Shown piece after piece: positions 2-52,138 of a DNA stretch of 64,000 nt; position 1 is the stretch's first letter, and every line of letters starts with the position of its first letter. The notes beneath the pieces are model-generated. The model was not told where the DNA came from, did no database searches, and was given only the letters and a program-made list of their open reading frames with translations. The stretch is from an uncultured Bacteroidota bacterium (GTDB lineage Bacteria > Bacteroidota > Bacteroidia > Bacteroidales > P3): NCBI GenBank assembly GCA_902800395.1, contig CADCEC010000004.1, forward strand, positions 124,001 to 188,000, written 5' to 3'. The translations under genes were made by a program, and so were the position numbers.

Positions 2-2770
2 CTTAATATGCCTGGCTGCTACCGCGATGTGAAAGACACGACTTGTGTCGCCATGTTCAAGATTAAGGACCTTGAGGACGCTAAGGACCTTATGGACATG
101 CCTACCTACGCCATCGCTTGGACTACCACTCCCTGGACGCTGCCTTCGAACACTGCCCTCTGCGTGGGTCCCAATATCGACTATGTCACCATCGAGACCA
201 CCCATCCCTACAAGGAGACGCCCTGCCGCATCATCATGGCCAAGGCTCTGGTGGGTTCGATGTTCCCCGAGGGTAAGTCGCCCGAATACAAGATTGTCGG
301 CGAGTGCAAGGGTAAAGACCTTGAGGGTCTGCACTATGAGCAACTTATCCCCTGGGTGAAACCTACCGAGGTGAGCGATAAGGGTTCGTTCCGCATCATC
401 CTTGGCGACTACGTGACCACCGAGGATGGTACCGGTATCGTGCATATCGCCCCCACCTTCGGTGCCGACGACGCCCGTGTGGCCAAGAAGGCCGGCATCG
501 GCGACCTGCTGTTCTTCGACCGCGACGGCAAGCAGCTGCCCATGGTCGACAAGCAGGGCCGCTTCGCCCCCGTCGAGGATCTCGACCCCGAATGGGTGAA
601 GGCCAATGTGAATGTTGAAGAATACAGCAAGTATGCCGGCAAGTTTGTCAAGAACGCCTACGACCCCACCAAGGGCGAGAAGGACATGAGCCTCGACGTG
701 GAGTTGGTCATCATGCTCAAGGAGCAGGGCAAGCTCTTCAAGAGCGAGAAGCACACGCACAGCTACCCTCACTGCTGGCGTACCGACAAGCCCGTCCTCT
801 ATTACCCCCTCGACAGCTGGTTCATCCGCACCACGGCCCTCAAGGAGCGCATGATAGAACTCAACAAGACCATCAACTGGAAGCCCGAAGCCACCGGCAG
901 CGGCCGCTTCGGCAACTGGCTGGAGAATATCGTCGACTGGAATCTCAGCCGCAGCCGCTACTGGGGCACCCCGCTGCCCATCTGGCGCACCGAGGACGGC
1001 AAGGAGGAGAAGTGCATCGGCAGCGTGAAGGAGCTGAGCGCCGAAATCGAGAAGGCCGTCAAGGCCGGTCTCATGACCTCGAATCCCTATGCTGGCGACT
1101 ACAAGGACTTTGACCTCCATCGTCCCTATATCGACAACGTCATTCTGGTCAGCGATAGCGGCAAGCCCATGCGCCGTGAGCCGGACCTCATCGACGTGTG
1201 GTTCGACAGTGGCGCTATGCCTTACGCCCAGATACACTACATGGGCGGCGAGCTGAAGCCCACCGAGTTCCCGGCCGACTTCATCGCCGAGGGCGTCGAC
1301 CAGACCCGCGGCTGGTTCTACACGCTCCACGCCATCGGCACCATGTGCTTCGACAGCGTGGCGTTCAAAAATGTCATCTCCAACGGCCTGGTGCTCGACA
1401 AGAACGGCAACAAGATGTCGAAGCGCCTCGGCAATGCCGTCGACCCCTTCGAGACCCTCGGCAAGTACGGCCCCGACGCCACCCGCTGGTATATGATTAC
1501 CAACAGTCAGCCGTGGGACAACCTGAAGTTCGACGTCGAGGGTGTCGACGAGGTGCGCCGCAAACTCTTCGGCACGCTGTACAACACCTACAGCTTCTTC
1601 GCCCTCTATGCCAACCTCGACGGCTTCGACTACAGCCAGAAGGACCTCGACATCAAGGAGCGTCCCGAGATTGACCGCTGGATACTCTCCGAGCTCAACA
1701 CGCTGGTGAAGACCGTCGGCGACGCCATGGAGGACTACGAGCCTACCCGCGCCGGCCGCGCCATCGGCACCTTCGTGGATGCCTACCTCAGCAACTGGTA
1801 CGTGCGTCTCTGCCGTCGTCGCTTCTGGAAGGGCGAGATGACCGCCGACAAGGTCAGCGCCTACCAGACGCTCTACACCTGCCTCGAGACCCTCAGCCGC
1901 CTTATGGCCCCCATCGCCCCCTTCTTCAGCGAGAGGATGTTCCTCGACCTCAACGCCGTCACCAAGCGCTACGATGTCGAGTCCGTCCATCACCTCGGCT
2001 TCCCCGAATACCACGCCGAGATGGTCGACAAGGCCCTCGAGGAGCGCATGCAGCTGGCCCAGAAGGTCTGCTCTATGGTCCTCGGCCTGCGCAAGAAGAG
2101 CAACCTCCGCGTGCGTCAGCCGCTGCAGAAGATTGTCATCCCGGTGCGCGACGAGAACATGAAGGCCCAGATCGAGAAGGTGCAGCACCTCATCTGCTCC
2201 GAGCTCAACGTCAAGGAGATTGAGTTCCTCGCCGCCGACAACGACCTGCTGGTGAAGAAAATCAAGCCCAACTTCAAGACCCTCGGCCCGCGCTACGGCA
2301 AGGTGATGAAAGCCCTCGGTGCCGCCATCATGGCCTTCAGCCAGCAGCAGATCAACGCCCTCGAGGCCGACGGCCGCTGTGTGGTCAGCGTCGAAGGTCA
2401 GGATTGCGAAGTGCTGCTGAGCGACGTGGAAATCGCCACGCAGGACATCCCCGGCTGGGTGGTGGCCAACGACGGCAACCTCACCGTGGCCCTCGACATA
2501 CAGCTCACCCCCGAGCTCATCAACGAAGGCATCGCCCGCGAGCTGGTGAACCGCATCCAAAACATCCGCAAGGAACAGTTCGACGTCACCGACCGCATCG
2601 TCGTCGAGCTGCAGAGCGGCGAGTGGGACAGCGCCATCAACGCCCACCGCGACTACATCTGCACCGAGACCCTCTGCACCAGCCTCACCCTCGTCCCCTC
2701 CGTGGAAGGCGGCACCCCCATCGAGCTCCTCGACGGGCAGAACACGATGATTAAGATAGCGAAAGCTTAA
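2..2770 (+). CDS. ileS: isoleucyl-tRNA synthetase, 5' truncated by window edge
   Basis: Class I aminoacyl-tRNA synthetase that charges tRNA-Ile in the cytoplasm. The frame is open to the first bases of the window, so the N-terminus with the HIGH motif lies outside. The editing (CP1) domain motif WTTTPWTLPSNTA is near nt 118-156 and the KMSKRLGN catalytic loop is at about 1412-1435; an anticodon-binding and C-terminal region follows. About 920 residues are visible, fitting the long IleS form (over 1,000 aa) of Bacteroidetes. Near nt 61-97 it carries a short KDLEDAKDL stretch whose DNA resembles the GGACCTTAA micro-repeat found elsewhere in the window. The stop overlaps the next start by one base (TAATG), so the M20 peptidase is probably co-transcribed. 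Confidence 0.97.
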   Translation, partial: LNMPGCYRDVKDTTCVAMFKIKDLEDAKDLMDMPTYAIAWTTTPWTLPSNTALCVGPNIDYVTIETTHPYKETPCRIIMAKALVGSMFPEGKSPEYKIVGECKGKDLEGLHYEQLIPWVKPTEVSDKGSFRIILGDYVTTEDGTGIVHIAPTFGADDARVAKKAGIGDLLFFDRDGKQLPMVDKQGRFAPVEDLDPEWVKANVNVEEYSKYAGKFVKNAYDPTKGEKDMSLDVELVIMLKEQGKLFKSEKHTHSYPHCWRTDKPVLYYPLDSWFIRTTALKERMIELNKTINWKPEATGSGRFGNWLENIVDWNLSRSRYWGTPLPIWRTEDGKEEKCIGSVKELSAEIEKAVKAGLMTSNPYAGDYKDFDLHRPYIDNVILVSDSGKPMRREPDLIDVWFDSGAMPYAQIHYMGGELKPTEFPADFIAEGVDQTRGWFYTLHAIGTMCFDSVAFKNVISNGLVLDKNGNKMSKRLGNAVDPFETLGKYGPDATRWYMITNSQPWDNLKFDVEGVDEVRRKLFGTLYNTYSFFALYANLDGFDYSQKDLDIKERPEIDRWILSELNTLVKTVGDAMEDYEPTRAGRAIGTFVDAYLSNWYVRLCRRRFWKGEMTADKVSAYQTLYTCLETLSRLMAPIAPFFSERMFLDLNAVTKRYDVESVHHLGFPEYHAEMVDKALEERMQLAQKVCSMVLGLRKKSNLRVRQPLQKIVIPVRDENMKAQIEKVQHLICSELNVKEIEFLAADNDLLVKKIKPNFKTLGPRYGKVMKALGAAIMAFSQQQINALEADGRCVVSVEGQDCEVLLSDVEIATQDIPGWVVANDGNLTVALDIQLTPELINEGIARELVNRIQNIRKEQFDVTDRIVVELQSGEWDSAINAHRDYICTETLCTSLTLVPSVEGGTPIELLDGQNTMIKIAKA
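61..97 (+). repeat. micro-repeat tract (GGACCTTAAG-like) inside ileS
   Basis: Degenerate direct repeats of AAGGACCTTGAGGAC type encode KDLEDAKDL at the start of the visible editing domain. The same unit, inverted, occurs at 46020-46056 and 58945-58985. Confidence 0.45.
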
Positions 2771-4056
2771 TGGAAAACCTGATAGATAGAATCAAGCAGC
2801 TGGCGCATGCACAGCGCGAGGAGGTGATAGAGTGGCGGCGCTGGATGCACCGGCACCCCGACCTCTCGCAGGAGGAGTACGGCACCATGGAGTTCGTGGC
2901 CGAACGGCTGCGTGCCATGGGGCTGGACCCCAAGACGGGGATTGGCAAGACGGGCGTGATGGCGATGCTGGAAGGTAGGGGCGTACCCCCGTGTACGCCC
3001 ACAGAAATCAATGCATCTGGCAAGGGCGTACACGGGGGTACGCCCCTACAAGGAGATAAGGAGATAAGACAATACTGCGTCGCTTTGCGTTCCGACTATG
3101 ACGCCCTGCCTATCACCGAGTGCACGGGTCTGCCTTTCGCCAGCGAGAAACCTGGCGTGATGCATGCCTGCGGGCACGACATGCACACCTGCTCGCTACT
3201 CGGCGCCATCAAGATTCTCATACAACTGAAAGACCAGTTCAGCGGCACGCTGATGTTCATCTTCGAGCCGTCGGAGGAGAAATACCCCGGCGGCGCCCGC
3301 ATGATGATGGAGGACGGCCTCTTCGACGACATCATGCCCAACGAGATTTACTCCTTCCACTGCCTGCCGGAGATGGACTTCGGCAAAGTGGGCATGCGCA
3401 AAGGCAAGTATATGGCCTCGACCGACGAGCTCTACTGGACCGTCAAAGGCCTCGGCGGCCACGGCGCCACGCCGCACCTCAGCGTCGACCCCATCGTGGT
3501 GGCCAGCCATATCGTCATCGCCCTGCAGCAGGTGGTCAGCCGCAACGCCGCCCCCATGATGCCCACGGTGCTCACTATTGGCAAGATTCAGGAGGTGGGC
3601 GGCCGCACCAACATCATCCCCGACACGGTGAAGATGGAGGGCATCATCCGCACCTTCGACGAGAAGTGGCGCCTCGAGGCTCACGAGAAGATTCGCAAGA
3701 TAAGCACCGGCGTGGCCGAAGCCATGGGCGCCGAGTGCGACCTCTTCATCGACTACGGCTATCCCTACGTCTTCAACGACGACGCCTGCACGCAGCAGGT
3801 GCACGACAACGCCTGCGCCTTCCTCGGTGAGGAGAACGTCGAATGGCTCGACCTCCGCATGACGGCCGAAGACTTCGCCTTCTTCGCGCAGAAGATACCG
3901 GCCTGCTACTTCCGTATCGGCATCCACGAGCCTGGCACCCCCTTCAGCAACCTGCACCGTCCCAACCTCATGGTCGACGAGCGCAGCCTCGAGCTGGCCA
4001 ACGGCCTCATCGCCTACAACGCGCTGATGGCGCTGAATAATAGGATAAAACAATAA
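2770..4056 (+). CDS. M20 family metallopeptidase / amidohydrolase
   Basis: Zinc-dependent amidohydrolase of the M20D type (N-acyl-amino-acid or hippurate hydrolase group), probably cytoplasmic. Visible motifs are the metal-binding HACGHDMHT (about nt 3160-3190), the catalytic EPSEE stretch (about 3265), GGHGATPH in the dimerisation domain (about 3450) and TAEDFAFF near the C-terminus. The protein is 428 aa, longer than the usual 390-400. The surplus is an in-frame insertion (about residues 69-102) made of a perfect 26-bp inverted repeat followed by a GGAGATAA micro-repeat; on either side the conserved sequence (GVMAMLEG, then VALRSDYDALPITE) continues. Whether the insertion is tolerated as a surface loop is unknown. 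It overlaps ileS by one base and abuts the MATE gene. Confidence 0.93.
   Translation: MENLIDRIKQLAHAQREEVIEWRRWMHRHPDLSQEEYGTMEFVAERLRAMGLDPKTGIGKTGVMAMLEGRGVPPCTPTEINASGKGVHGGTPLQGDKEIRQYCVALRSDYDALPITECTGLPFASEKPGVMHACGHDMHTCSLLGAIKILIQLKDQFSGTLMFIFEPSEEKYPGGARMMMEDGLFDDIMPNEIYSFHCLPEMDFGKVGMRKGKYMASTDELYWTVKGLGGHGATPHLSVDPIVVASHIVIALQQVVSRNAAPMMPTVLTIGKIQEVGGRTNIIPDTVKMEGIIRTFDEKWRLEAHEKIRKISTGVAEAMGAECDLFIDYGYPYVFNDDACTQQVHDNACAFLGEENVEWLDLRMTAEDFAFFAQKIPACYFRIGIHEPGTPFSNLHRPNLMVDERSLELANGLIAYNALMALNNRIKQ
2975..3049. repeat. perfect 26-bp inverted repeat (REP-like palindrome) inside the M20 gene
   Basis: Arm 2975-3000 begins GTAGGGGCGTACCCCCGTGT and is exactly complementary to arm 3024-3049, with a 23-bp loop. 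The length keeps the reading frame. GTAGGGGCG...CGCCCCTAC ends resemble REP-type dispersed palindromes. Confidence 0.9.
3050..3074 (+). repeat. 25-bp dispersed repeat, copy 1
   Basis: AAGGAGATAAGGAGATAAGA followed by CAATA. The identical 25 bp recurs at 35803-35827 at the end of another gene. It directly follows the palindrome, as if both arrived together. Confidence 0.85.
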
Positions 4057-5484: not shown

Positions 5485-6458
5485 AAGTTTTTGAGAACAT
5501 ATCATTAAAGCCCTATAATACCTTCGGCATCGACGTGAAAGCCAGAAGGGTGGTGGTGTTGGAGCCCGGCGACGATTTAAGTGGAAAGTGGAAAGTGGAA
5601 AGTGGAAAGTGTCTGGTGATTGGCGCTGGAAGCAATATGGTGTTTACCAAGGACTACGAGGGCACCGTCATTACGTTGTCTAAAACCTTTCACCTTTCAC
5701 CTTTCACCTCTCACCTTGTCACCGCGTGGGGAGGAATGGTGATGGATGACCTCATCCAGTGGACCCTCGACCACGGGCTTTACGGTCTCGAGAACCTCTC
5801 GGCTATTCCCGGCACCGTGGGAGCCTCTGCGGTGCAGAATGTGGGCGCCTATGGTGCTGAAGCGAAAGACTTTATCGAGAGAGTCGAGGCTTACGACCTG
5901 CAGGAACGCCGCCATTGCACCTTCAGCAATGCCGACTGCCACTTCGCCTACCGCGACTCCTTCTTCAAGCACCATCCCGGACGTTACCTCATCCTCCGCG
6001 TCACCTACCGCCTGAGCCGCGAGTTTGTCCCCAACCTCAGCTACAAAGCCCTTGAAGGCTTGCCGCACGACACCGCCCAGCAGCTTCGCGAGGCCATCAC
6101 AGAGGTGCGCTGGAACAAACTCCCGCGTCCCGAGGAACACGGCTCCGCTGGCAGCTTTTTTAAAAACCCCGTCGTCGACGAATCCACCTACCTACGCCTT
6201 AAAGCTGAATATCCCGACATGCCCGACGCCCACAGATCAGACAATGGTTATAAGCTTTCGGCGGGCTGGCTCATTGACCGTGCCGGATGGAAAGGTCGCA
6301 CGCAGGGTAGGGCAGGGGTCTGGCCCAAGAACGCCCTCGTCCTATACAATGCTGACGGCTGCTCCGGTGACGAAGTCCGCGCCCTCGCCGCCGCCATACA
6401 ACAAGATGTGAAACAGAAATTTGGCGTCGCCCTCGACCCCGAAGCGATTATAATCTAA
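5481..6458 (+). CDS. murB: UDP-N-acetylenolpyruvoylglucosamine reductase
   Basis: FAD- and NADPH-dependent reductase that makes UDP-N-acetylmuramate for peptidoglycan. Visible are the N-terminal NTFGIDVKAR, the FAD-site GAGSNMVF, GTVGASAVQNVGAYG, the catalytic-serine motif AGSFFKNP, and the C-terminal AGVWPKNALVLYN. The start is GTG at 5481, overlapping the MATE stop by four bases; the sequence MKVFENISLKPYNTF aligns naturally from there. Two micro-repeat tracts interrupt conserved sequence in frame: (GTGGAAA)n at 5581-5611, encoding SGKWKVESGK, and its inverted counterpart (CTTTCAC)n at 5686-5715, encoding FHLSPFTSHL. The two tracts are reverse complements, so the mRNA could pair here. Confidence 0.95.
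   Translation: MKVFENISLKPYNTFGIDVKARRVVVLEPGDDLSGKWKVESGKCLVIGAGSNMVFTKDYEGTVITLSKTFHLSPFTSHLVTAWGGMVMDDLIQWTLDHGLYGLENLSAIPGTVGASAVQNVGAYGAEAKDFIERVEAYDLQERRHCTFSNADCHFAYRDSFFKHHPGRYLILRVTYRLSREFVPNLSYKALEGLPHDTAQQLREAITEVRWNKLPRPEEHGSAGSFFKNPVVDESTYLRLKAEYPDMPDAHRSDNGYKLSAGWLIDRAGWKGRTQGRAGVWPKNALVLYNADGCSGDEVRALAAAIQQDVKQKFGVALDPEAIII
5581..5611 (+). repeat. heptamer micro-repeat (GTGGAAA)n in murB
   Basis: About four tandem GTGGAAA units with 7-bp period, in frame, placed between the conserved N-terminus and the FAD loop. The same tract is found at 51511-51540 in tolC and, degenerate, at 25897-25930 in mfd. Confidence 0.9.
5686..5715 (+). repeat. heptamer micro-repeat (CTTTCAC)n in murB
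   Basis: Four near-perfect CTTTCAC units, the reverse complement of the tract at 5581-5611 (GTGAAAG versus GTGGAAA units differ by one base). It lies in frame after the conserved VITLSK strand. Confidence 0.85.
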
Positions 6459-6478: not shown

Positions 6479-7071
6479 ACGACAACAGAGACAACGCAGA
6501 CAACGACGAAACGCCAACATGGCGTTTCGTAAGGATGGAGAAAACAGGTTTCGTTATGATGGATATTGCTAAATACAAAGATGAGTGTTACGATGTGATG
6601 GGTGCCATTTACAATGTGAAGAAAGAATTGGGGCCAGGTTTGAATGAAAAGATATATCAGGAGGGGTTGGCTATGGAACTGTCTTTGCAAAAGATACCCT
6701 TTGAAAGGGAATTTGCGGTGCATCCTGTTTATCGTGGAAAGCAGATGGAGTCAATCTTCTTTTTGGATTTCTTTTGTAAGGGAAGTATCATTGTGGAATT
6801 GAAATCGGTTTCTGCTCTCAATAAAGAGCATCGTGCACAGTTATATAATTACATGCATTTGGTAAAGCCGATGGTAGGTATTTTGGTGAATTTTGCTCCA
6901 TTATACGCAGAAATTGAACGTTATTATTATGATAAGGATTTGGACTTGATAGTCAATTCTGATGGCAAAAAACTAAGGAACAGATATGATGACAACATAG
7001 AATTTCATAGTATCCGTTAAGGAAAACGCATGTTGCGTTTTCCCTGTTGTCTGCATTGTCTATGTTGTCGT
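6479..7071. mobile_element. TIR-bounded element carrying a GxxExxY gene
   Basis: Left end 6479-6504 begins ACGACAACAGAGACAACGCA; the right end 7046-7071, read on the minus strand, begins ACGACAACATAGACAATGCA; 24 of 26 positions match. Just inside each end is a hairpin: CGAAACGCC/GGCGTTTCG at 6507-6529 and GGAAAACGCA/TGCGTTTTCC at 7021-7043. Extra ACGACAA copies lie just outside both ends (about 6457 and 7091). The only gene within is GxxExxY; there is no recognisable transposase. Gene-less relatives are at 9177-9294 and 43003-43090. Mobility is inferred. Confidence 0.7.
6535..7020 (+). CDS. GxxExxY protein, PD-(D/E)XK nuclease-like fold
   Basis: A 161-aa protein carrying the family signature GLNEKIY (GxxExxY) and a PD-(D/E)XK-like core: FFLDFF with an Asp, then IIVELKSV giving the E-x-K. 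The family is common in Bacteroidetes and Planctomycetes; its function is not established to my knowledge. Base composition is clearly more AT-rich than murB and the 7110 gene on either side, suggesting transfer. It lies exactly between two hairpin-plus-TIR ends, so it is either the cargo or the motor of that element. Start could be ATG 6535 or a later Met (6556 or 6559, MMDIAKYKDE), which would fit the family's usual N-terminus better. No partner gene is adjacent. Confidence 0.9.
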   Translation: MEKTGFVMMDIAKYKDECYDVMGAIYNVKKELGPGLNEKIYQEGLAMELSLQKIPFEREFAVHPVYRGKQMESIFFLDFFCKGSIIVELKSVSALNKEHRAQLYNYMHLVKPMVGILVNFAPLYAEIERYYYDKDLDLIVNSDGKKLRNRYDDNIEFHSIR

Positions 7072-7744: not shown

Positions 7745-7779
7745 ACTTTTTTCACTTTTCACTTTTCACTTTTCACTTT
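7745..7779 (+). repeat. heptamer micro-repeat (TTTTCAC)n upstream of purA
   Basis: Four to five tandem TTTTCAC units directly upstream of the purA promoter, covering the -33 region. Copy-number change here would move upstream sequence relative to the promoter. Confidence 0.85.
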
Positions 7780-7784
7780 TTTCG

Positions 7785-10411: not shown

Positions 10412-10466
10412 CAGTTAATAGATAACAGTTAATAGATAATAGTTAACTGGGAGAGAATCAATAAAG

Positions 10467-10489: not shown

Positions 10490-10572
10490 TTGCTTGTTTC
10501 CGTGTAACTTACTTAATTGGGCCAACATTAGTGTAGGACACTATATAGTAGCTCTTTTGCGCATTTGATACA

Positions 10573-10640: not shown

Positions 10641-10714
10641 AATATATAAGCAAGTTAACATTATCCAAACAGAGGGGCGGAATGAAAATCATTTGGCTAT
10701 TTGGGTATTATTTG

Positions 10715-10722: not shown

Positions 10723-10744
10723 CAAGTCGAAAATGATTGTCAAG

Positions 10745-12444: not shown

Positions 12445-12446
12445 TT

Positions 12447-28700: not shown

Positions 28701-29191
28701 GCCTCCCACATGTCGAGCTTTTGTCCGCGGGCGATGCGGAAGGTGTTGGCGCGGAAGGTGTTGGAGGAGACGACCTTCTCGCTCAGCGCGTCGGCGTAGG
28801 AGACCACGATGAGGGGCTCTGCGCCGCTGAGGGCTTTCACCACCTCGTTGCGCATCAGCAGGTTGGCATTCTCCGTCTGGTCGGGGTCGTAATGGTAGGC
28901 CTTGCGGTAGGAGGTCGGGAAGAGCATCACGCTCCTTATCTCCTTATCTCCTTCCACCTTATCTTCTTTTAATAGCGCTTCTATGTCGTTCTGCAGATAG
29001 TAGGCCTCCTCCTTGCTGGCGGCGATGACGAGCTGGCTGACGGTAGGCATCTGCTGAGCCAACGCTGCGATGGCCACGGAGGGCAGCGACCCCGTGAGTC
29101 CGTCGACATGCACCCGCGCCTTTGATGAAGAAAGGTGGTTTGAAATATTTTTGATGAAAGGGCTATCTTTGTATAGATCAGTGAGTATCAT
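25751..29191 (-). CDS. mfd: transcription-repair coupling factor
   Basis: DNA translocase that removes stalled RNA polymerase and recruits UvrA. UvrB-like N-terminal domain, RNA-polymerase-interacting CarD-like domain (KPGDFVTHIDYGVGRFSGLE), helicase core with GDVGFGKTE (Walker A, ~residue 612) and DEEQKFGV, and the C-terminal TRCF domain. Start ATG 29191 (MILTDLYKDSPF) is just downstream of a promoter at 29218-29225; an upstream ATG at 29266 precedes it. Four micro-repeat inserts lie in frame: KVEGDKEIR (28930-28960), SEHSENSEFSEHSEK (28427-28468), SLPFTPFHSLSLL (27951-27990) and NSPLSTFHSPLEK (25897-25940). 1,146 aa. uvrA lies 3 kb away on the other strand. Confidence 0.97.
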   Translation of the reverse strand: MILTDLYKDSPFIKNISNHLSSSKARVHVDGLTGSLPSVAIAALAQQMPTVSQLVIAASKEEAYYLQNDIEALLKEDKVEGDKEIRSVMLFPTSYRKAYHYDPDQTENANLLMRNEVVKALSGAEPLIVVSYADALSEKVVSSNTFRANTFRIARGQKLDMWEAVERLQEMGFEREDFVVEPGQYAVRGGIVDVYSYASDLPFRIEFFDDEVDSLRTYDTVSQLSVKQMDRIDIVPNFSGLSEHSENSEFSEHSEKRVSLMEYFSSDDVVWTQSLMMAAEQMEKLLADTRKAYSDRLADKEHPVAGDLPKPEEMSCSANEFLHKLLDCKIIEYGNSHYFSQADRIEHHSDPQPAFNKQFDMLQENLRQHEDEGYKLIITVSGESQQKRLEKILAAPDGNVSSLPFTPFHSLSLLNINISHGFVDHDTKVLCYTDHEIFDRYHKYTVKDLRSTHEALTLKELFELKPGDFVTHIDYGVGRFSGLEKVTNNGKSQELIRLIYKGGDVLYISIHGLHKISRYVGREGEAPTLNRLGSNTWQVLKAKTKKQVKDIAKDLIALYAKRKASQGFAFSEDCSMQEQLEASFIYEDTPDQLKATVAVKHDMEMRAPMDRLICGDVGFGKTEVAIRAAFKACCDDKQVAVLVPNTILAFQHYNTFRERLKGMPVRVDYLNRFRTTKEKNQIYKDTEEGKIDILIGTHAITNKQLKFKDLGLLIIDEEQKFGVSAKEKLKQLKANVDCLTLTATPIPRTLQFSLMGARDLSVIQTPPPNRQPIETELSDFNEELIRDAIMYEMDRGGQTFFISNRVENLPEMAGLVQRLVPDARVAMAHGRMEGKDAEETLMRFLEGDIDVLVATSIVENGLDIPNANTMIINNAQQFGLSDLHQMRGRVGRSNRKAFCYLLIPSYLTLTPDAQRRLKAIEEFSSIGSGFNIAMRDLDIRGAGNILGAEQSGFISEIGYDMYHKILNEAIEELKESDFADLFAAEAEENKEYVKECTIETDLEVLLPDDYVTSVSERLLLYKELNELSTEEELDTYREHLEDRFGPVPPCALELIRTITLRRMAKEFGIEKIVLKQDRMVLHLSSSFLNSPLSTFHSPLEKIIQFAQAHPRTARLKETPDRLTLSVENVQSITAAIDVLTELRGKN
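25897..25940 (-). repeat. GTGGAAA micro-repeat insert in mfd
   Basis: Degenerate GTGGAGA/GTGGAAA heptamers; in frame, near the C-terminal TRCF domain. Confidence 0.8.
27951..27990 (-). repeat. GTGAAAGGGA micro-repeat insert in mfd
   Basis: Four tandem 10-bp units; in frame between the N-terminal and RID domains. Confidence 0.85.
28427..28468 (-). repeat. CTCGGAGTG micro-repeat insert in mfd
   Basis: Tandem 9-bp units encoding SEHSENSEFSEHSE in the N-terminal region. Confidence 0.85.
28930..28960 (-). repeat. GGAGATAA micro-repeat insert in mfd
   Basis: Inverse orientation of the AAGGAGATAA unit found at 3050, 32925 and 35791; encodes EGDKEIR. Confidence 0.8.
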
Positions 29192-30867: not shown

Positions 30868-30955
30868 GGTAATGGTTAACGGTTAAAGGTTAATGAATGG
30901 TTATAGGTTATTGGTTATAGGTTATCGAATGGTTAACGGTTAAAGGTTAATGATA
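30868..30955. repeat. GGTTAACGGTTAAAGG micro-repeat tract
   Basis: Tandem GGTTAACGGTTAAAGGTTAATGA and GGTTATAGGTTAT units fill the gap between porX and the next gene; related tracts at 32470-32500 and 50685-50725. Confidence 0.85.
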
Positions 30956-32505: not shown

Positions 32506-35301
32506 TTGGATAAGATTTTCATAAAAGGGGCGCGGGCGAACAACCTGAAGAATATCGATGTAGAGATTCCGCAGGGCAAGCTGGTGGTGGTCACCGGCTT
32601 GAGCGGCAGTGGCAAGTCGTCGCTGGCATTCGACACCCTTTTTGCCGAAGGGCAGCGCCGCTATGTGGAGAGCATGAGCTCCTACGCCCGCCAGTTCCTT
32701 GGCCGCATGACGAAACCCGAGGTGGATTATATCCTCGGCCTCTCGCCAGCGGTGGCCATCGAGCAGAAGGTCAACACCTCCAATCCCCGCTCCACCGTGG
32801 GCACCAGCACCGAGATTTACGAATACCTGAAGTTGATGTTCGCCCGCATTGGCCGCACCTTCTCACCCGTGAGTGGCACAGAGGTGAAGCGGCATTCTGT
32901 GAGCGATGTGGTGGATTATATTATAGGAGGTAAGGAGACAGGAGATAAGGAGATAGGGGGTAAGGTGTTGATTATGGCACCGTTGGAGGACAGCAAGGAG
33001 CGTCCGCTGCGGACGCAACTCGACATCCTGCACCAGGAAGGCTACCAGCGTGTGATGGTGAAAGGTACGGTGATGCGCATCGAGGACATCGACAATGTGG
33101 AGCTCGACAATGAGGTCTACCTCGTCATCGACCGTGTGACGGTGGACCCCAACGACGACGAGATGAAAGCCAGGGTGGGGGAGAGTGTGCAGGCCGCCTT
33201 CTTCGAAGGGCGCGGCTCGTGCCGCATCGCCGTGGTCGGCGGTTCGGTTGCCGACTTCAGCAACCGCTTCGAGGCCGACGGCATCACCTTTGAGAAGCCC
33301 AATCCCAACTTTTTCTCCTTCAACAACCCCTATGGCGCCTGCCCCACCTGTCAGGGCTACGGCAGCGTCATCGGCATCGACGAGAACCTCGTGGTGCCCA
33401 ACAAGAACAGAAGCATCTACGATAACGCCGTGGTGTGCTGGAACGGTGACAAGATGCAGGATGTGAAGCGCGAGTTCATCCGTCACGCTGCGGTGATAGA
33501 CTTCCCCATACACAAGCCCTACTACGAGCTGACTCCCGAGCAGAAGGATATCCTTTGGCACGGCGACGGCACGTGGGACGGCATCGACGGCTTCTTCCGC
33601 TGGGTGGAGAGCCAGAGCTACAAGATACAGTATCGTGTGATGCTGGCACGCTACCGTGGCCGCACCGTATGTCCCGAGTGCAAGGGACGCCGTCTCCGCA
33701 GGGATGCGGAATATGTGAAGGTCGACGGACGCAGCATCAGCGAACTCACGGAGATGCCGGTGTCGAAGCTGGTGACGTGGTTCAGCGACATCGAGAGTCG
33801 CCTCACACCCCACGAGTGTGCCGTCACCGAGCGCCTCCTCACCGAAATCAAGCACCGGCTGGGATATCTCGTCGATGTAGGCCTCGGATACCTCACCCTT
33901 AACCGACTGAGCAACAGCCTCAGCGGCGGTGAGAGTCAGCGCATCAATCTGGCCACCTCGCTGGGTAGCTCGCTGGTGGGCTCGATGTACATCCTCGACG
34001 AGCCCTCCATAGGTCTCCATTCGCGCGATACCGGCCAACTCATCAATGTTCTCAAACGTCTGCGCGACCTAGGCAACACCGTCATCGTTGTGGAGCACGA
34101 CGAGGATATCATCCGTGCTGCCGACTGGCTTATCGATATCGGTCCCGGTGCCGGTCGACTCGGTGGCGAGGTGGTCTACAGCGGTGATCTTAAAGTCCTT
34201 AATGATACTAAGAGTCTAAAAGCTCCTAAAAACAGCCTCACCCTCGATTACCTGCAGGGGCGTCGCAGCATTGCCGTTCCCAAAAGCCGTCGTCGCTGGC
34301 GCGACCGCATTTCCATCCACGGAGCCTATTGCAACAACCTCAAGCATATCGATGTCGACATCCCCCTGGGAGTGCTGACGGTGGTCACCGGTGTGAGCGG
34401 CAGCGGCAAGACGAGCCTCATCCGCCGTGTGCTCTACGATGTTTTGCAGCATCGTTTCGACGGCACCTCCGACTATGTGGGCAGCTGTGTGGCGATGGAC
34501 GGCGACGTGCCGCGCATCTCGGCCGTCGAGATGGTCGACCAAAACCCCATCGGACGCTCCTCGCGCAGCAACCCCGCCACCTATATGAAGGTCTTCGACG
34601 AGGTGCGAGCCCTCTATGCCAAGCAGCCGCTGGCAAAGAGTCGCGGCTACAAGGCCGGCTTCTTCTCCTTCAATGTCGAAGGGGGCCGCTGCGAGACCTG
34701 CCAGGGTGAGGGTCAGGTCACTGTGAGCATGCAGTTTATGAGCGACGTGCACCTCGTCTGCGACGAGTGTCACGGGAGCCGCTACAAAGACGAAGCCCTC
34801 GAGGTGCTCTATAAAGGGAAGAATATCAGCGAGATTCTCGATATGACCGTCGACCAGGCCCTTGAGTTCTTCGACAGCGACGAGACGCGCTCCATCTACA
34901 CCCGACTGAAGCCGTTGCAGGATGTAGGACTTGGATACCTGATGCTTGGGCAGTCCTCCAGCTCGCTCTCTGGCGGCGAATGCCAGCGTATCAAGTTGGC
35001 CTCCTACCTCGTCAAGGGTGAGGGGGAGCAGCCCATGCTGTTTATTTTTGACGAACCTTCCACGGGACTACATTTCCACGATATCCAGAAGCTCCTTGCG
35101 GCGTTCGACCGCCTCATCGAGCGCGGCCACACCATCGTTGTTATCGAGCATCACCACGACATCATCAAGGTGGCCGACTGGATTATCGACATGGGTCCCG
35201 AAGGTGGTGACGAAGGCGGCAATGTGGTCTTCGCCGGCACTCCCGAGAACCTCCTCAAGTGCAAAGAATCCTATACCGCAAAATACCTGAAATTGAAATG
35301 A
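32506..35301 (+). CDS. uvrA: excinuclease ABC subunit A
   Basis: DNA-damage sensor ATPase of nucleotide excision repair. Two ABC modules: [22 protein letters not shown] with LSGGESQRI, and [15 protein letters not shown] with [15 protein letters not shown]; zinc motifs [19 protein letters not shown] and CETCQGEG. It appears to start with TTG at 32506 ([17 protein letters not shown]), the usual UvrA opening; no ATG is available nearby. 931 aa. Two micro-repeat inserts are in frame: [13 protein letters not shown] (32925-32966) and [14 protein letters not shown] (34191-34230). Its stop overlaps the next start (ATGA). With mfd nearby the locus holds two transcription-coupled repair genes. Confidence 0.97.
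32925..32966 (+). repeat. GGAGATAA micro-repeat insert in uvrA
   Basis: AGGAGGTAAGGAGACAGGAG ATAAGGAGATAG-type units, in frame, in the first signature-domain region. Confidence 0.85.
34191..34230 (+). repeat. AAAGTCCTTAATGAT-type micro-repeat insert in uvrA
   Basis: Degenerate AAGTCCTTAA/ACTAAGAGTCTAAAAG units between the two ABC modules. Confidence 0.6.
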
Positions 35302-35828
35302 ATAGTTTTGAAATTGAGATTAAGAAAATTCGCCGTTATTCGCAGACGGGCCTCTGGGGCTCTGTAGCGGTGGTAATCCTCGCCTCGTTCTTCCTGTATG
35401 TCAGTCCGGTGCGCTTCATGCAGACCGAGCATACCGCCCGTTGGATGCTTATCGCCGGCAGCGTCCTCGCCGTGTTGGCGGTGAGTATGGCGTTGCTGAC
35501 CATCCGCAAGCAGATTCCGCGTCTGCGGCAGGCCGAGAGTATCGAAGAGAAGGTCACGGGATATGTGTCACATATCCGCTCGCTCTACCTCACCATGCTC
35601 GCCGTAGTGGTCATCATATGCCTCTTCATGGTGCTCTCCAACCAGAATGTGCTGCTTATGCTCGCCCTGATTTCCGTGCTCACCCTCTTTCTGGCTTATC
35701 CCAATATCTACCGCATCAAGGTGGAACTGGGCCTCACCGACGAGGAAATGAAGCAACTCTTCGGCGACCGTTATATCTGCGAGGAGAGTGGAGATAAGGA
35801 GGAAGGAGATAAGGAGATAAGACAATAG
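35298..35828 (+). CDS. membrane protein, 176 aa
   Basis: ATG 35298 overlaps the uvrA stop. Four hydrophobic segments are visible in two pairs: SVAVVILASFFLYVSP with WMLIAGSVLAVLAVSMALL, and LYLTMLAVVVIICLFMVL with VLLMLALISVLTLFLAYP. No family recognised. The C-terminal tail (EESGDKEEGDKEIRQ) is wholly encoded by the GGAGATAA micro-repeat, which also contributes the stop codon, so the native end has probably been replaced. Translationally coupled to uvrA and mnmE. Confidence 0.8.
   Translation: MNSFEIEIKKIRRYSQTGLWGSVAVVILASFFLYVSPVRFMQTEHTARWMLIAGSVLAVLAVSMALLTIRKQIPRLRQAESIEEKVTGYVSHIRSLYLTMLAVVVIICLFMVLSNQNVLLMLALISVLTLFLAYPNIYRIKVELGLTDEEMKQLFGDRYICEESGDKEEGDKEIRQ
35791..35827 (+). repeat. 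GGAGATAA tract, with 25-bp dispersed repeat copy 2
   Basis: Positions 35803-35827 are identical to 3050-3074. The tract forms the C-terminal codons and stop of the membrane-protein gene. Confidence 0.9.
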
Positions 35829-35830: not shown

Positions 35831-37147
35831 ATGGATATGCTGAGCAGTGATACCATAGTGGCCATCTCCACCCCTCATGGGATGGGAGGCATCGCTGTAA
35901 TCCGTATTTCGGGTCCTGATGCGTTGCCACTTTCGCTGCGCCATCTGTCGGTTGATAGTTTGACGGAGAGAAAAGCTACTTACTGTCGATTCGACGATAT
36001 TGACGATATCGTTGCTATATTTTACACGAAAGGTTACACGGGCGAACCTACCGTGGAACTCTCCTGCCACGGGTCTCTCTATGTCCAACAGGCGATGCTG
36101 CAGGCTCTTGTTGACGATGGTGCCCGACTCGCCGAACCCGGCGAATTCACGCGCCGCGCTTTTCTTAACGGTCGTCTCAACCTCTCGCAGGCAGAAGCTG
36201 TGGCGGACCTTATCGACTCTGTGACTCCCGTCCAGCACCACCTGGCCGTCAGTCAGTTGCGAGGTGGCTATGCACGGACTCTCAAAGACTTGCGTCAGCA
36301 GCTCCTCGACCTTACCTCGCTTCTCGAGCTCGAATTAGACTTCTCTCAGGAGGATGTAGAGTTCGCCGACCGCACCCAACTGCGAAAAATACTTTCTTCT
36401 TTACATTTTCAACTTTCCACTTTACTCTCATCTTTCCGCATGGGTAATGCCCTCAAACGAGGCATCCCAGTAGCCATTGTTGGGCGACCCAATGCCGGCA
36501 AGTCGTCGCTTCTCAACGCTTTGTTGGGCGACGACCGCGCCATTGTCTCCGACATTCCAGGCACCACACGAGACACTATCGAGGAGACCCTTACCCTCGA
36601 CGGTATCACCTTCCGTTTTATCGACACCGCTGGTCTTCGCCATAGCGATGACACCGTCGAGGCTCTCGGCATCAATCGCACCCGCAAGGCCATTGCCGAT
36701 GCCTACCTGGTCCTCTACGTCCACGACTCCACCACCCCTTGGCAGGAGCCCGACCTCGACCTCACCGATAAGCATGTTATTGTTGTACAAAATAAATCCG
36801 ACCTTTCCCAACACGCCTTAGCTAATCCTCAATTATCAATTATCAATATTTCTGCGAAGACCGGTACGGGTCTTCCAGAACTCCGTGCCGCTATGCTCGC
36901 CGCTGTCCGCGGCGAGATGCCTGACGAAAGCAATGTGCTCCTCTCCAATGTCCGCCACTATGAGGCGATGCAGCGTGTGCAACAGGCCCTCGACAATGTC
37001 CGATGTGGGCTCGAAGACGGCACTCCTGCCGACCTTGTGGCCGTTGACCTTCGGGATGCTCTCTACCATTTGGGCACTATCACCGGTGAGGTGACCTCCG
37101 ACGAGGTGCTGGGAAATATCTTTGGCCGATTCTGCGTGGGTAAATAA
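35831..37147 (+). CDS. mnmE: tRNA modification GTPase
   Basis: With MnmG installs 5-carboxymethylaminomethyl groups on wobble uridine of tRNA. N-terminal tetrahydrofolate-binding domain (IVAISTPHGMGGIAVIRISG, ELSCHGSLYVQQAML, EPGEFTRRAFLNGRLNLSQAEAVADLI), G domain with GRPNAGKSSLLNALLG, DIPGTTRD, DTAG and NKSD, and the invariant C-terminus FGRFCVGK. 438 aa. GTG 35828 just upstream is an alternative start. Micro-repeat inserts: LSSLHFQLSTLLSS (36392-36430), between helical and G domains, and NPQLSIINIS (36828-36850) beside the NKSD loop. Confidence 0.96.
   Translation: MDMLSSDTIVAISTPHGMGGIAVIRISGPDALPLSLRHLSVDSLTERKATYCRFDDIDDIVAIFYTKGYTGEPTVELSCHGSLYVQQAMLQALVDDGARLAEPGEFTRRAFLNGRLNLSQAEAVADLIDSVTPVQHHLAVSQLRGGYARTLKDLRQQLLDLTSLLELELDFSQEDVEFADRTQLRKILSSLHFQLSTLLSSFRMGNALKRGIPVAIVGRPNAGKSSLLNALLGDDRAIVSDIPGTTRDTIEETLTLDGITFRFIDTAGLRHSDDTVEALGINRTRKAIADAYLVLYVHDSTTPWQEPDLDLTDKHVIVVQNKSDLSQHALANPQLSIINISAKTGTGLPELRAAMLAAVRGEMPDESNVLLSNVRHYEAMQRVQQALDNVRCGLEDGTPADLVAVDLRDALYHLGTITGEVTSDEVLGNIFGRFCVGK
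36392..36430 (+). repeat. AACTTTCC micro-repeat insert in mnmE
   Basis: TTTACATTTTCAACTTTCCA-type degenerate heptamers, in frame; same family as 51557-51590 in tolC. Confidence 0.75.
36828..36850 (+). repeat. TCAATTATCAATTATCAAT micro-repeat in mnmE
   Basis: Eight-bp period AATTATCA units in frame next to the NKSD motif. Confidence 0.7.
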
Positions 37148-40737: not shown

Positions 40738-40815
40738 TAAGAGGTGTGAACTAAGAACTAAGAAAGGGCTGACGCAACCAAATGTGTCAGCCCTCTTAGT
40801 TCTTACTTCTTGGTT
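40738..40815. terminator. bidirectional terminator flanked by inverted CTAAGAACTAAG micro-repeats
   Basis: Core stem AGGGCTGAC/GTCAGCCCT (40765-40773 and 40786-40794), flanked by AACTAAGAACTAAGAA on the left and CTTAGTTCTTACTTCTT on the right. Lies between convergent genes. Confidence 0.8.
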
Positions 40816-43002: not shown

Positions 43003-43090
43003 ACGACAACAGAGACAACAAAGACAAAGGAGAAACGCAACATGCGTTTCTCCTTTTTTCGACATCTAGTTTGATGTTCTCTGTTGTCGT
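43003..43090. mobile_element. short TIR/hairpin element, third relative of the GxxExxY element
   Basis: Left end at 43003 begins ACGACAACAGAGACAACAAA; right end at 43090, read on minus, begins ACGACAACAGAGA and then decays. Central hairpin GGAGAAACGCA/TGCGTTTCTCC (43029-43053) has the same AACGC(A)..TGCGTT core as the other two copies. An outer ACGACAA lies at 42980. May double as the rpsP terminator. Confidence 0.65.
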
Positions 43091-43106
43091 TGATACAATA
43101 AAAAAG

Positions 43107-44757: not shown

Positions 44758-46412
44758 CCAATCCGCGGAATGGCTTCGATAAGGGTTCGGGTATAGTCGG
44801 TCTGTGGATTAGCGAAGATATCGTCGGGAGTGCCGCTCTCGACGATTTTTCCTTTTTGCATCACCATGATACGGTCGGAGAGGAATTTCACAACGCTGAG
44901 GTCGTGGGTGATGAAAAGGTAGGTGTAGTGGTACTGGCGCTTAAGGTCGTTGAGGAGGTTGAGCACCTGTGCCTGTACGCTGACATCAAGGGCGGAGACA
45001 CTTTCGTCACACACCACCAACTCGGGCTGCAGGATTAGGGCGCGGGCAATGCAGACGCGTTGCCGCTGGCCGCCGCTGAGCTCGTGCGGATAGCGATTGT
45101 ACCAGTCGGGATTGAGGCCGACCTGCTGCATGAGTTCGAGTGTGCGGCGGCGTTCGCCGCCGCCGTGAACCTTCAAAGGTTCACTTATCGCATCGCCAAT
45201 GGTAATCCTTGGATTCAGCGAGGAGTAGGGGTCCTGGAAGATAATCTGCAGCTTGGGACGCAGGGCGCGCATCTGGCGGCGGGAGAGACTATCGAGACTC
45301 TGGCCGCGGTAGAGGATGGTGCCGTCGCTGTGGTCGATGAGCCGCAGCAGGGCGCGACCGAGAGTTGTTTTTCCACAGCCGCTCTCACCGACTAGACCCA
45401 GTGTCTCGCCCTCCATAATGTCGAAACTGATGCCGTCGACGCCTTTAAGTGTCTGCAGTGGCTTACCGAAGAGGCTCTTTTTCAAGGTGTAGGTGACATC
45501 GAGGTTGCGAACCGAAATGAGGGGCTTGCTTGTTGGACCTATAGGGTCAATAGGGCTAGGTCTAATGGGTTCTTGGGCACCATTCAAGAATTCTTCCACC
45601 GTCGGCAGCCGTTCCGGGCGGCTGTCGAGGGGCGGGCGGCAAGCGAGAAGCCCTTGGGTGTAGGGCTCTTTAGGATGGTGCAGGATGTCGTAGGCAGGCC
45701 CTTGCTCGACGACATGGCCGCGATACATCACTAGGATATCGTCGGCAATTTGACTGATGACCCCTAGGTCATGGGTGATGAAGATGATGCTGATGCCGTG
45801 TTTCTGCTGCAGCGAGCGCAACAAGTCGAGGATGGTCTTCTGTACGGTGACGTCGAGGGCTGTGGTGGGTTCGTCGGCGATGAGGATATCTGGGTTGTTG
45901 ACGAGAGCCATCGCAATCATCACGCGCTGCTTCTGTCCACCGCTGATCTCGTGGGGATAACTGTCGAAAATCTTCTCGGGGCGGGGGAGGAGCACCTCCT
46001 TGAAAAGTTCGATAACGCGGTCCTTGAGGTCTTTAGAGTCCTTAAGGTCCTTAGGGAGGTGCGCACGGAGCATCTCCATCACCTGTGCGCCGCATTTCTG
46101 TACGGGGTTGAGGGAGGTCATGGGCTCCTGGAAAATCATCGCGATGCGACGGCCGCGGATGTCGCGGAATTGCTCCTCGGTGAGGGTGAGGAGCTCTGTG
46201 CCGTCGAGTTTGGCACTACCGCTGACGGTGGCGTTTCTGGGCAGCAATCCCATGAGGGCCAGAGAGCTGACACTCTTGCCGCTGCCACTCTCGCCCACGA
46301 TGCCGAGTGTCTTCCCGCGCTCGAGGCTCAGATTCAGATTCTCCACCACCGTACGTCCGTCGAAAGCCACAGACAGGTCCTGTATCTCGAGTATATTGTT
46401 CTCTTGATTCAC
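44754..46412 (-). CDS. double-NBD ABC ATPase of the peptide/nickel (Dpp/Opp) type
   Basis: Two complete nucleotide-binding domains in one 552-aa chain. NBD1: [20 protein letters not shown]-loop [38 protein letters not shown]2: [55 protein letters not shown]. Each ends with the oligopeptide-type tail (GxPxDIxxxPxxxYTxxLL). Such fused ATPases (GsiA/YejF-like) energise oligopeptide importers, but no permease or binding protein lies next to it. Micro-repeat inserts: [14 protein letters not shown] (46020-46056) in NBD1 and the linker [14 protein letters not shown] (45535-45572). Confidence 0.93.
45535..45572 (-). repeat. GGTCTAATAGG micro-repeat in the ABC linker
   Basis: GGACCTATAGGGTCAATAGG-type units coding for the inter-domain linker. 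Confidence 0.7.
46020..46056 (-). repeat. GGTCCTTAAG micro-repeat in NBD1 of the ABC ATPase
   Basis: Tandem 9-bp TCTTTAGAG/TCCTTAAGG units encode [11 protein letters not shown]; nearly the same as 58945-58985. Confidence 0.85.
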
Positions 46413-50731: not shown

Positions 50732-52138
50732 ATGAAACACAACACAATATATAAGAGATTGTTTTGCACCAGCCTCTTGGTTCTTAGTGCTTGCTTCTTA
50801 GTTCCGGTGTCCGCTCAGACGCTGACGCTCGACAGCTGCCTCTCGCTGGCCCGTCAGCACAATGCTGATATCCGCAATTCGCGGCTCGCCGTGCAGAAAG
50901 CGCAGGCTGTCAAGGATCAAGTCTACACCAAATACTTCCCCAATGTTTCGCTCCGTGCCTTGGGTTATTATGCCGCACAGCCGATGATTGACTTTGGTGT
51001 CGACGACATCAGTTCGAACGATATGCGAGAGTTGTTGGAAGCTATCTACGAAGCGCTCTCCGACGAGACGGATGTCAGCAATCGCTTGAACCTGATGAAG
51101 AAAGGTGCCGGCGGTTCCATCGTCCTCGCCCAGCCCATCTACATGGGTGGCCGCATCGCCAACGGCAACCGCTTGGCCGACCTCGGCGTCGAAGCTGCCG
51201 GCTTGCAGGCAGAAGTGAAGGTGCGCGACGTGCTCGAACAGGTGGAGTCCTCTTATTACCTCGTTGTCGGTCTCAAAGAAAAGTCGGCCACCGTCGATGC
51301 TGCCCTCGAACTTATCGACTCCCTTTCTCACACCGTCAATTCGGCCCTCGCCAACGGTTTGGCTACCAAGGCCGATGCCCTTCAGGTGGAACTCAAGCGC
51401 AACGAAATCAAAGCCCAGCAGCAACAACTCAACTCCGGCATCCGTCTGGCGCGTCGTCTCCTCTGCATCCAGATAGGCATCGACTATTCCGACAACCTCG
51501 ACTTTGGAACGGAAAGTGGAAAGTGGAAAGTGGAAAGTGATGCCGATGCAAAAAATCTTTCAACTTTCAACTTTCAACTTTCAACTTCCACCCGTCCTGA
51601 GCGTCGCCTTCTCGATCTCAATCTCCGCGCTCAGGAGCTCCAAAAAGAGTTGACCCGCGGTGAAGCGCTGCCCCAGCTGGCGCTCGTTGGCGTCGGATTC
51701 TACGGAAACCTCATCCGTTCCAACGCTACGGCCAATGCCGTCGCTTTGCTCTCGCTCACCGTCCCCCTCACCGACTGGTGGGAGACCTCGCACAAGATAC
51801 GTGAGCACAACCTCCGCATCGAGGAGGCCCGCACCATGCAGGAAGACTACAACAAAAAGATGTCCCTCGAGGAGGAAAAAGCCTACAGCGATATGGTCGA
51901 TGCCGCTATGCTTATCCGCAGCGACTCTGCGGCTCTCGACCTCGCGCGCGAGAACCACCGTCTGGCTACCCTCAACTACTCTGCGGGTGCCAATACACTC
52001 AACGACGTGCTACAGGCACAGACGCTCCTCCTGCAGGCACAGAATGCCCTCACCGACCGACGTATCGCCTATCTCATCGCACGTCGTCGGCTGCAGGATC
52101 TCACTTCTCAATCTTCTCCCACAGAACGCTCTCGCTGA
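50732..52138 (+). CDS. TolC family outer-membrane efflux channel
   Basis: 468 aa. The signal peptide (FCTSLLVLSACFLVPVSAQ) is encoded across a CTTGGTTCTTAGTGCTTG micro-repeat. The coiled-coil repeats of OEP proteins follow (LTLDSCLSLARQHNADIRNSRLAVQKAQ and LDLNLRAQELQKELTRGEALPQLALVGVGFYG). Two inserts in frame lie between the repeats: (GGAAAGT)n at 51511-51540, encoding ESGKWKVES, and (CAACTTT)n at 51557-51590, encoding LSTFNFQLSTST; they are near reverse complements. The last 38 bp overlap the convergent DUF2147 gene. Confidence 0.92.
   Translation: MKHNTIYKRLFCTSLLVLSACFLVPVSAQTLTLDSCLSLARQHNADIRNSRLAVQKAQAVKDQVYTKYFPNVSLRALGYYAAQPMIDFGVDDISSNDMRELLEAIYEALSDETDVSNRLNLMKKGAGGSIVLAQPIYMGGRIANGNRLADLGVEAAGLQAEVKVRDVLEQVESSYYLVVGLKEKSATVDAALELIDSLSHTVNSALANGLATKADALQVELKRNEIKAQQQQLNSGIRLARRLLCIQIGIDYSDNLDFGTESGKWKVESDADAKNLSTFNFQLSTSTRPERRLLDLNLRAQELQKELTRGEALPQLALVGVGFYGNLIRSNATANAVALLSLTVPLTDWWETSHKIREHNLRIEEARTMQEDYNKKMSLEEEKAYSDMVDAAMLIRSDSAALDLARENHRLATLNYSAGANTLNDVLQAQTLLLQAQNALTDRRIAYLIARRRLQDLTSQSSPTERSR
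51511..51590 (+). repeat. paired GGAAAGT and CAACTTT heptamer tracts in tolC
   Basis: About four GGAAAGT units (51511-51540), a 16-bp spacer, then four to five CAACTTT units (51557-51590). Antiparallel tracts as in murB; between the two OEP halves. Confidence 0.88.

Follow-up and report, generated by a model that had tools for sequence, protein, structure and literature searches.

INTRODUCTION

Heptamer arrays and a preference for four units per array are already known in bacteria, and the arrays described here are an extreme variant of them. In the parts of the published accounts considered here, GGGNATC heptameric repeats are found genome-wide in Xanthomonas and Nostoc with a four-unit preference, and slippage is cited as an idea for their origin (Rehm 2015, PMC4692102). 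TAACTGA direct repeats are described in Beggiatoaceae, cyanobacteria, and five Bacteroidetes (MacGregor 2015, PMC4679880). Elements of four tandem GGACCGG heptamers occupy 49 sites within and between genes of Geobacter metallireducens (PMC2700814), and Rickettsia palindromic elements (RPEs) lie in frame in unrelated genes (review, PMC10969869). Here we analyze short tandem arrays in a 64-kb stretch (G000:C4:124001-188000, called the window) of a 2.41-Mb metagenome-assembled genome (MAG) of a Bacteroidales bacterium in 21 contigs.

The tract-bearing genes of the window are ileS, an M20 peptidase gene, murB, mfd, uvrA, mnmE, an ABC ATPase gene, and a gene for a TolC-family protein that scores under the curated cut-off. 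These tracts are best read as copies of several very short dispersed element families, each of about four near-identical 7- to 10-bp units (30 to 45 bp), standing solo or as the arms of hairpins. The initial annotation had listed at least 14 in-frame tracts. Codon views place the coding tracts of the window in frame, and inspection by eye bore out those in ileS, M20, murB (two), mfd (four), uvrA, the ORF before mnmE, mnmE, the ABC ATPase, and tolC (two), while second tracts in uvrA, mnmE, and the ABC ATPase were not found.

RESULTS

Arrays exceed chance and favor about four units

Our sample of the genome comprised 464 kb, namely the window and 20 further stretches (400 kb). The stretches were picked after GTGGAAA sites were known, so GTGGAAA counts in the sample are enriched; 26 of the 54 GTGGAAA sites counted by eye fall in this 19% of the genome. 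Genes are longest open reading frame (ORF) calls from a simple caller, some of them spurious, with a coding fraction of 0.92. Unit comparisons site by site, arm copy counts, and duplication checks were judged by eye. We write G000 for the genome itself, G002 for its sister species (IleS 97 to 98% identical to that of the window), G001 for a congener, other G-numbers for further genomes compared, and L-numbers for sampled loci or stretches.

Exact periodic runs with at least 12 matched bases were concentrated at period 7 (67 runs), with 9, 3, 8, and 12 at periods 8, 9, 10, and 11 and none at periods 1 to 5 in the sample; the Markov control held none at any period from 1 to 17. The pattern GTGGAAAGTGGAAAGTGG matched 42 + 48 times in the genome against 5 for its reverse, and these matches make up the 54 sites, on 17 of the 21 contigs. 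Tandem Repeats Finder (TRF) gave 81 rows for the window and 119 period-7 arrays for the sample, 11 in the 64-kb window and 108 in the 400 kb of stretches, which extrapolates to roughly 400 to 650 genome-wide.

The lengths of GTGGAAA arrays are bimodal. Exact runs of 8, 9, 10, and 11 bp (63, 21, 8, and 7) are at background when compared with third-order Markov sequence (60, 16, 6, and 3). Beyond these, we found 31 runs at 12 to 20 bp, none at 21 to 24 bp, 25 at 25 to 34 bp, and none longer; 30 permuted units summed gave no run above 20 bp. Pieces of longer, mismatch-broken arrays account for 21 of the 31 shorter runs. With runs joined over mismatches, 10 arrays remain at 12 to 20 bp, none at 21 to 24 bp, and 38 lie at 25 to 46 bp with a mode of 30 to 31 bp. 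The biased choice of stretches does not explain this gap. Median copy numbers were 4.57, 4.12, 3.67, 4.20, and 3.05 for periods 7 to 11, respectively, and near 2, the detection floor, for periods 12 to 15. The four-unit preference of the heptameric simple sequence repeat class (LSSR/STRR-like) is thus found here, as is its excess of tandem units of about 7 bp; the mainly noncoding location of that class is not, with 65 of the 119 period-7 arrays in called ORFs.

Arrays could be born independently at each site by polymerase slippage, with the few tolerated words recurring. Units of at least 5 bp escape mismatch repair, heptamers would slip most readily, and slippage would fit both the period-7 peak and the absence of periods 1 to 5. 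This genome has a full MutS, and 91 of the 99 genus genomes have a match over the family cut-off, which would be consistent with a repair system that acts on short loops alone. An excess of heptamers and the idea of slippage have also been published, in the parts of two papers considered here (PMC4692102 and PMC4679880). Stepwise single-unit slippage, however, would not be expected to leave a gap at 21 to 24 bp with 8- to 11-bp runs near background frequency. The non-tandem unit order and tails common to separate loci, and a conserved hairpin core with arms (see below), also stand against it; for the E8 and core families, these shared features already count against slippage. We consider independent slippage an unlikely source of the arrays as a whole, although it may well add to unit homogeneity within them.

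Arrays are patchily distributed across the order

The 80 best named relatives of the window's PorX come from uncultured Bacteroidales or Bacteroidetes, many from the rumen, other ruminant gut, or horse feces. TRF period-7 arrays per 100 kb numbered 8.1 in 45 named loci with PorX identity of at least 66% and 5.5 in 35 loci at 55 to 61%, compared with 27 in our own stretches, a value enriched by their choice. In the congeners sampled, period 11 ranks second among the short-period classes when exact runs are counted. A search for the word AGTGRAR repeated to 18 bases picked out 46 of the 393 order-level genomes, from 37 of 206 genera; within the genus it picked out 50 of 99 genomes including our own, with 0 to 139 matches. 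The array class is therefore patchy and spread across the order. Our genome had the top count in both searches. The reversed control matches many of the same genomes (27 times in our own) because related words occur there too.

Assembly error is an unlikely source of the arrays, since the E8 elements in uvrA and M20 and the E8b element in folC sit at the same place in G002 and since other arrays occur in MAGs of other named projects. The initial annotation had raised this possibility as one that would undo its reading.

Two gene-based explanations were rejected. Loss of MutS does not account for the arrays: the 91 genomes with MutS1 over the family cut-off include our own and G002, and G021, G446, and G470 (96 to 98% complete) have only weak MutS matches and few to moderate array-word counts. 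A reverse transcriptase as a source of single-stranded DNA was found in 41 of 99 genus genomes, with one in our own and none found in the array-rich G002. Our own domain lies at G000:C1:142710-143267, inside a 1,003-amino-acid open frame.

Element families share unit order, tails, and a hairpin core

The initial annotation had noted unit families shared between loci and present in both orientations, and both points were confirmed. The family termed E8 consists of GGAGATAA units and was sought by GGAGATAAGACAA, its 13-base 3' part, which picked 18 loci (reversed control, 0). Unit spacing was 8-7-8 in 9 of these, 8-8-8 in 3 (one larger module), 7-8-7 in 2 (near-identical copies), 7-7-8 in 1, and shorter in 3. 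At L179, L180, and L187, E8 copies lie inside a larger repeated module alongside TTTAAAG/GTTAAAG-type arrays. In the E8b family (GCAATCAA), the first unit often has ACTC in place of AATC; this holds for 13 of the 22 loci retrieved by an AATC query (by eye) and for 15 of the 21 retrieved by an ACTC query. The E9 family (AAGGACCTT) recurs in ileS, the ABC ATPase gene, an intergenic site, and elsewhere. E8 and the E10 family (GGGAGTGAAA) have a common tail, which reads either GACAAATG or GACAAT. Of the 19 GACAAATG occurrences in the sample, 11 were judged by eye to come after E8- or E10-type units, in two cases after a single unit.

The tail GACAAATG is half of a hairpin in which a four-unit arm, the core GACAAATGTNNNNNACGNNNCTATTGTC, and an inverted arm follow one another. 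We counted 13 copies of this core in our genome when as many as 3 mismatches were allowed (control, 0); with no more than 2 allowed, it is present in 15 of 99 genus genomes, our own included (reversed control, 0/99). Eleven copies from other species have purine/pyrimidine arms on both sides, of about four units each in most, with differing units. In three of our own copies (L186, L199, and L202), one arm is a GAAGTTAAA arm and the other belongs to a different family. At L207, a RarA-like AAA ATPase gene that scores under the curated cut-offs contains a full copy in frame; the predicted fold of this copy has an energy of -85.4 kcal/mol (z = -11.8; single-stranded RNA, given strand), compared with -30.5 kcal/mol (z = -5.7) for the tolC arm pair. 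In G001, Mfd holds a two-armed element in frame (L240). These two genes thus show the RPE trait of a palindromic element in frame in a protein gene. An inverted partner (score of at least 12; both arms of one hairpin can count) lies within 130 bp for 28 of 181 arrays, compared with 3 of 181 random positions, and a direct partner for 2 of 181 arrays.

Such a layout raises the possibility of a non-autonomous transposon or a repetitive extragenic palindromic (REP)-like family, i.e., a miniature inverted-repeat transposable element (MITE) or a REP mobilized by a REP-associated tyrosine transposase (RAYT), with solo arrays as half-elements or decay products. The conserved core, inverted arms, and dispersed copies in 15 of 99 genus genomes speak for this, as do the in-frame full copies in the RarA-like gene and G001 Mfd. 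However, most arrays (153 of 181) are without an inverted partner, and arm units vary while the core stays constant. The MITE combination of terminal inverted repeats and dispersed copies is found only in the GACAA-core family. No target-site duplication was seen by eye in the flanks of hairpin-core copies. Y1 transposase matches occur in 63 of 99 genus genomes, and none was found in G458 and G484, both incomplete, despite many AGTGRAR words there. One of our two Y1 matches (C12) was viewed and has CCCCTG-type REP-like hairpins alongside (L156:13200-13900), unlike the arrays. Y1/RAYT mobilization was rejected on these grounds; our search for an autonomous partner covered Y1 transposases and reverse transcriptases. 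A transposon or REP origin is, in our estimate, improbable for the arrays overall.

Searching the window against Rfam returned no family at the gathering threshold, and nine loci gave 33 sub-threshold matches at an E value of up to 1, nearly all to microRNA-type hairpins.

Units often differ between close relatives, and arrays are inserted or overwrite native sequence

We compared 14 matched array sites between our genome and G002 by eye, with doubtful sites (5579, 43005, 46019, L147 16160, and L147 16333) excluded. The folC, rimO, and L147 orthologue comparison comes from one of the 20 stretches. The unit was kept at 6 sites (ileS, M20, murB 5685, 10412, uvrA, and folC 2546) and differed at 8 (7749, mfd 27952, mfd 28932, mnmE, 40748, folC 2371, folC 2652, and rimO 18230). 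At 7749, TTTTCAC corresponds to TTTTCAT in every copy, and at 40748 both inverted arms changed together; these changes bear the mark of concerted change.

It had been suggested that alignment to relatives would show clean insertions, and this holds for the 8-mer elements, at about 18 to 36 nucleotides (nt): uvrA is 18 nt longer than in most aligned congeners, folC 27 nt, and rimO 18 to 36 nt depending on site and relative. It does not hold for several 7-mer arrays, which stand on native sequence of equal length. The folC 2652 site has equal length in all five genomes. At L147:16892, in a TonB-receptor-like gene, four GTGGAAA units encode KWKVESGKWK at the same length as in relatives, where the site is non-repetitive and of the RWRVEREAWK kind (4/4). 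In this comparison, the array overwrites native sequence and is not an insertion. The replaced site in relatives matches the array at 16 to 19 of 30 bases, as do about 0.5 to 2% of random windows, arrays included. Many arrays are identical and would serve equally well as donor for this equal-length replacement.

The same loop encoded by unrelated DNA, which the initial annotation held would count against its reading, does occur at some sites. The Mfd peptide NFQLSTFNLSH, for example, is common to L047 and L102 and is encoded by repeat DNA in L102 only.

Coding copies are mostly stop-free, and three of four in Mfd lie in poorly conserved regions

Period-7 arrays are denser per base between genes (54 in about 36 kb) than in coding DNA (65 in about 428 kb). 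Of the 65 in coding DNA, 39 have few or no stops on either strand (mostly stop-free), a further 23 are mostly stop-free when read on the sense strand, and 3 are unclear. The 54 intergenic arrays have stops on both strands in 36 cases, on one strand in 16, and on neither in 2. Because coding arrays are mostly stop-free while only 2 of 54 intergenic ones are so on both strands, selection for readable copies in coding DNA is supported, as the initial annotation had proposed.

Its statement that tracts always fall between conserved blocks was too strong. Three of the four Mfd tracts lie in the least conserved 2.4 to 4.2% of windows; the fourth, C-terminal tract stands in place of a segment that is more conserved in other sequences, with a change from 84 to 90 nt. 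As weak support from an AlphaFold model of modest quality (mean predicted local distance difference test [pLDDT] score, 67; 332 of 1,171 residues below 50), all four array-coded segments are predicted with pLDDT below 50 over parts of their length.

Arrays might also be kept for a function, as RNA-binding, translation, or termination sites, with four units as a binding requirement; this could coexist with other explanations. The four-unit mode across families would fit, and so would the E8 and E10 leaders that end in ACAAATG at gene starts at some loci and the inverted arms that extend terminator-like hairpins. A four-unit preference is also published for GGGNATC, in the part of that study considered here (PMC4692102). 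Unrelated genes, though, contain many copies, in one orientation or the other (GTGGAAA, 25 sense and 13 antisense), and units turn over between sister species at the same site. We think function a doubtful general cause, the weakest of those weighed here. G-quadruplex formation was ruled out as a general reason for four units, as TAATAGA- and GCAATCAA-type arrays are without G-tracts.

Features of the window

Coordinates are collected in Table 1. The M20 half-element is absent from the aligned G023 protein (401 versus 428 amino acids), and tolC has a further weak tract at 50776-50802.

TABLE 1 Array features of the 64-kb window
Feature	Position	Strand	Remarks
E9 9-mer element (AAGGACCTT/AAGGACTCT order) in ileS, in frame	64..97	+	Weak, 72% matches; E9 also in G002
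E8 half-element, GGAGATAA x2 + GACAA tail, in M20 peptidase gene, in frame	3050..3072	+	Repeat 3050-3068, 2.4 copies
(AAGTGGA)4.7 in murB, in frame	5579..5611	+	
(ACCTTTC)5.4 in murB, in frame	5685..5723	+	Same ACCTTTC unit in G002
(TTTTCAC)4.6 upstream of 7857 ORF	7749..7780	+	All copies TTTTCAT in G002
TAATAGA-type array, gene end	10412..10446	+	Left edge of segment absent here in G002
CTAAGAA-type array holding mfd stop codon	25699..25768	-	Right edge of segment absent here in G002
GTGGAAA-type array in mfd	25896..25946	-	In place of congeners' NPxSPFYxSxxF-like segment, 84 to 90 nt
(GGAGTGAAAG)3.8, E10 arm, in mfd	27952..27989	-	G002, AATTGAA units; G001, two-armed E10 element at site
(CTCGGAGTG)4.3 in mfd	28427..28465	-	
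E8 GGAGATAA array, 4 mismatches, in mfd	28932..28968	-	G002, AATGATG inverted array at site
GGTTAAN array between porX and next gene	30870..30953	+	Gapped in G002
E8 element inserted in uvrA	32925..32965	+	+18 nt vs most aligned congeners; E8 also in G002
E8 with GACAATAG end, 3' end of ORF before mnmE	35782..35826	+	Tract 35782-35821 checked by eye
(TCAATTA)2.7 in mnmE	36829..36847	+	G002, long CATCACT/CCTCACT array at site
Inverted TAAGAAC arms flanking GGGCTGACGC terminator-like hairpin	40745..40815	.	G002, AATTAAG units in both arms
E9 element in ABC ATPase gene, in frame	46019..46053	-	
tolC in-frame hairpin: (GGAAAGT)4.1 arm, 17-nt loop, (CTTTCAA)4.4 arm	51511..51587	+	Arms 51511-51539 and 51557-51587
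E9 copy adjoining minus-strand gene start	58945..58985	-	

G002 lacks about 15 kb of the window (10491-25761) at this place, with the flanking sequences retained on either side (31002 to 31033 in G002). Arrays lie at each edge of this segment, which suggests that arrays are rearrangement points.

Intergenic GACAAC/GTTGTC arrays of 9- and 11-mers lie at 6481-6505, 9179-9292, 10575-10642, 43005-43105, and 52677-52752, several of them inverted and some flanking terminator-like hairpins. Larger-unit repeats, unlike the four-unit micro-arrays, are found at 16646-16705 (24 bp) and 23710-23795 (22 bp). At 55666-55816, nearly seven copies of a 22- to 23-bp CTGATGTAAAGGCAC... unit lie within the AT-rich 52- to 56-kb stretch.

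DISCUSSION

The reading that we favor, with somewhat better than even confidence, is dispersed copying of four-unit elements followed by homogenization of their units and by selection. The initial annotation had argued for active spread over slippage at one site, and the bimodal length, the order and ends of E8 and E8b, and the hairpin core common to several species bear that out. New copies would arise when a short patch is copied from an array at another site in the genome, perhaps because replication switches template or single strands anneal at microhomology, in a step that could insert or overwrite some 30 to 40 bp. Slippage within arrays, together with template switches from one inverted arm to the other, might then keep units uniform and also let them turn over. 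Purifying selection would leave coding copies that are stop-free, compatible in length, and mostly in variable loops.

Several observations weigh against this reading. Half of the E8 loci (9 of 18) lack the 8-7-8 spacing, GTGGAAA arrays vary in the phase at which they end and the family has no fixed ends, and hairpin-core copies were without visible target-site duplication. The ten isolated GTGGAAA runs at 12 to 20 bp mean that intermediates are few, not absent. No candidate gene family (MutS, reverse transcriptase, or Y1 transposase) tracks the array word count, a phenotype that was compared by eye and is based on the one degenerate pattern AGTGRAR, so that other units are missed. The replaced site at mfd 1107 matches its array at only 12 to 13 of 36 bases, so homeology is at most a possible requirement for placement. 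Lastly, GTGGAAA arrays have similar density in genes (38 in about 428 kb) and between them (2 in about 36 kb), a pattern not predicted by random insertion with purifying selection. Arrays may therefore settle at sites that already resemble them, or else intergenic copies may be converted to units rich in stops.

A bolder version of dispersed copying is that a mutational process of this lineage puts its own lineage-specific words, as copies of four units, at new sites, where they overwrite resident DNA that matches in part. Arrays would then multiply in a selfish-like way with no dedicated transposon, and short coding patches would be rewritten and sorted by selection. We put this forward tentatively, as possible but rather doubtful.

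Bacterial short tandem repeats are usually taken as slippage products or contingency loci. Here, arrays act like dispersed elements with a preferred copy number, can take the place of coding sequence at equal length, and differ in unit between sister species. Should the copying step be confirmed, it would supply proteins with in-frame loops and would create clustered substitutions that could be mistaken for fast point mutation in alignments. It would also become possible to test why bacterial arrays favor seven bases and four units, which is an old question.

With regard to known processes, short-patch double illegitimate recombination (SPDIR) replaces short genomic patches with sequence from elsewhere at microhomology, and in this it resembles the copying that we propose. 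To our knowledge, no repeat preference or four-unit product of SPDIR is known. Among the literature matches listed, nothing described such arrays in Bacteroidales or the rumen.

Among known elements, the GGGNATC repeats are similar in their 7-bp units, genome-wide occurrence, four-unit preference, some inverted pairs, and variation in unit and length between close relatives, as far as the parts of the study considered here go (PMC4692102). According to the same parts, they are overrepresented in noncoding and underrepresented in coding DNA, can form G-quadruplexes, and were studied as one unit type. Our arrays, in contrast, comprise many families, several without G-tracts, have over half of the sampled period-7 arrays in called ORFs, and show overwriting and defined hairpin cores. 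The TAACTGA repeats are a single unit, mostly just upstream of start codons and, by title and abstract, chiefly intergenic (PMC4679880), whereas those described here are intragenic and multi-family. The Geobacter GGACCGG elements are likewise made of four heptamers within and between genes; they form one family with a predicted role as regulatory RNA, and the passages considered contain neither in-frame tolerance nor turnover (PMC2700814). RPEs, as described in part of a review (PMC10969869), are about 150 bp long with a conserved peptide. Our elements resemble them by description in being palindromic and in frame in unrelated genes, but they have 30- to 45-bp arms of changing unit that reach up to about 130 bp when paired.

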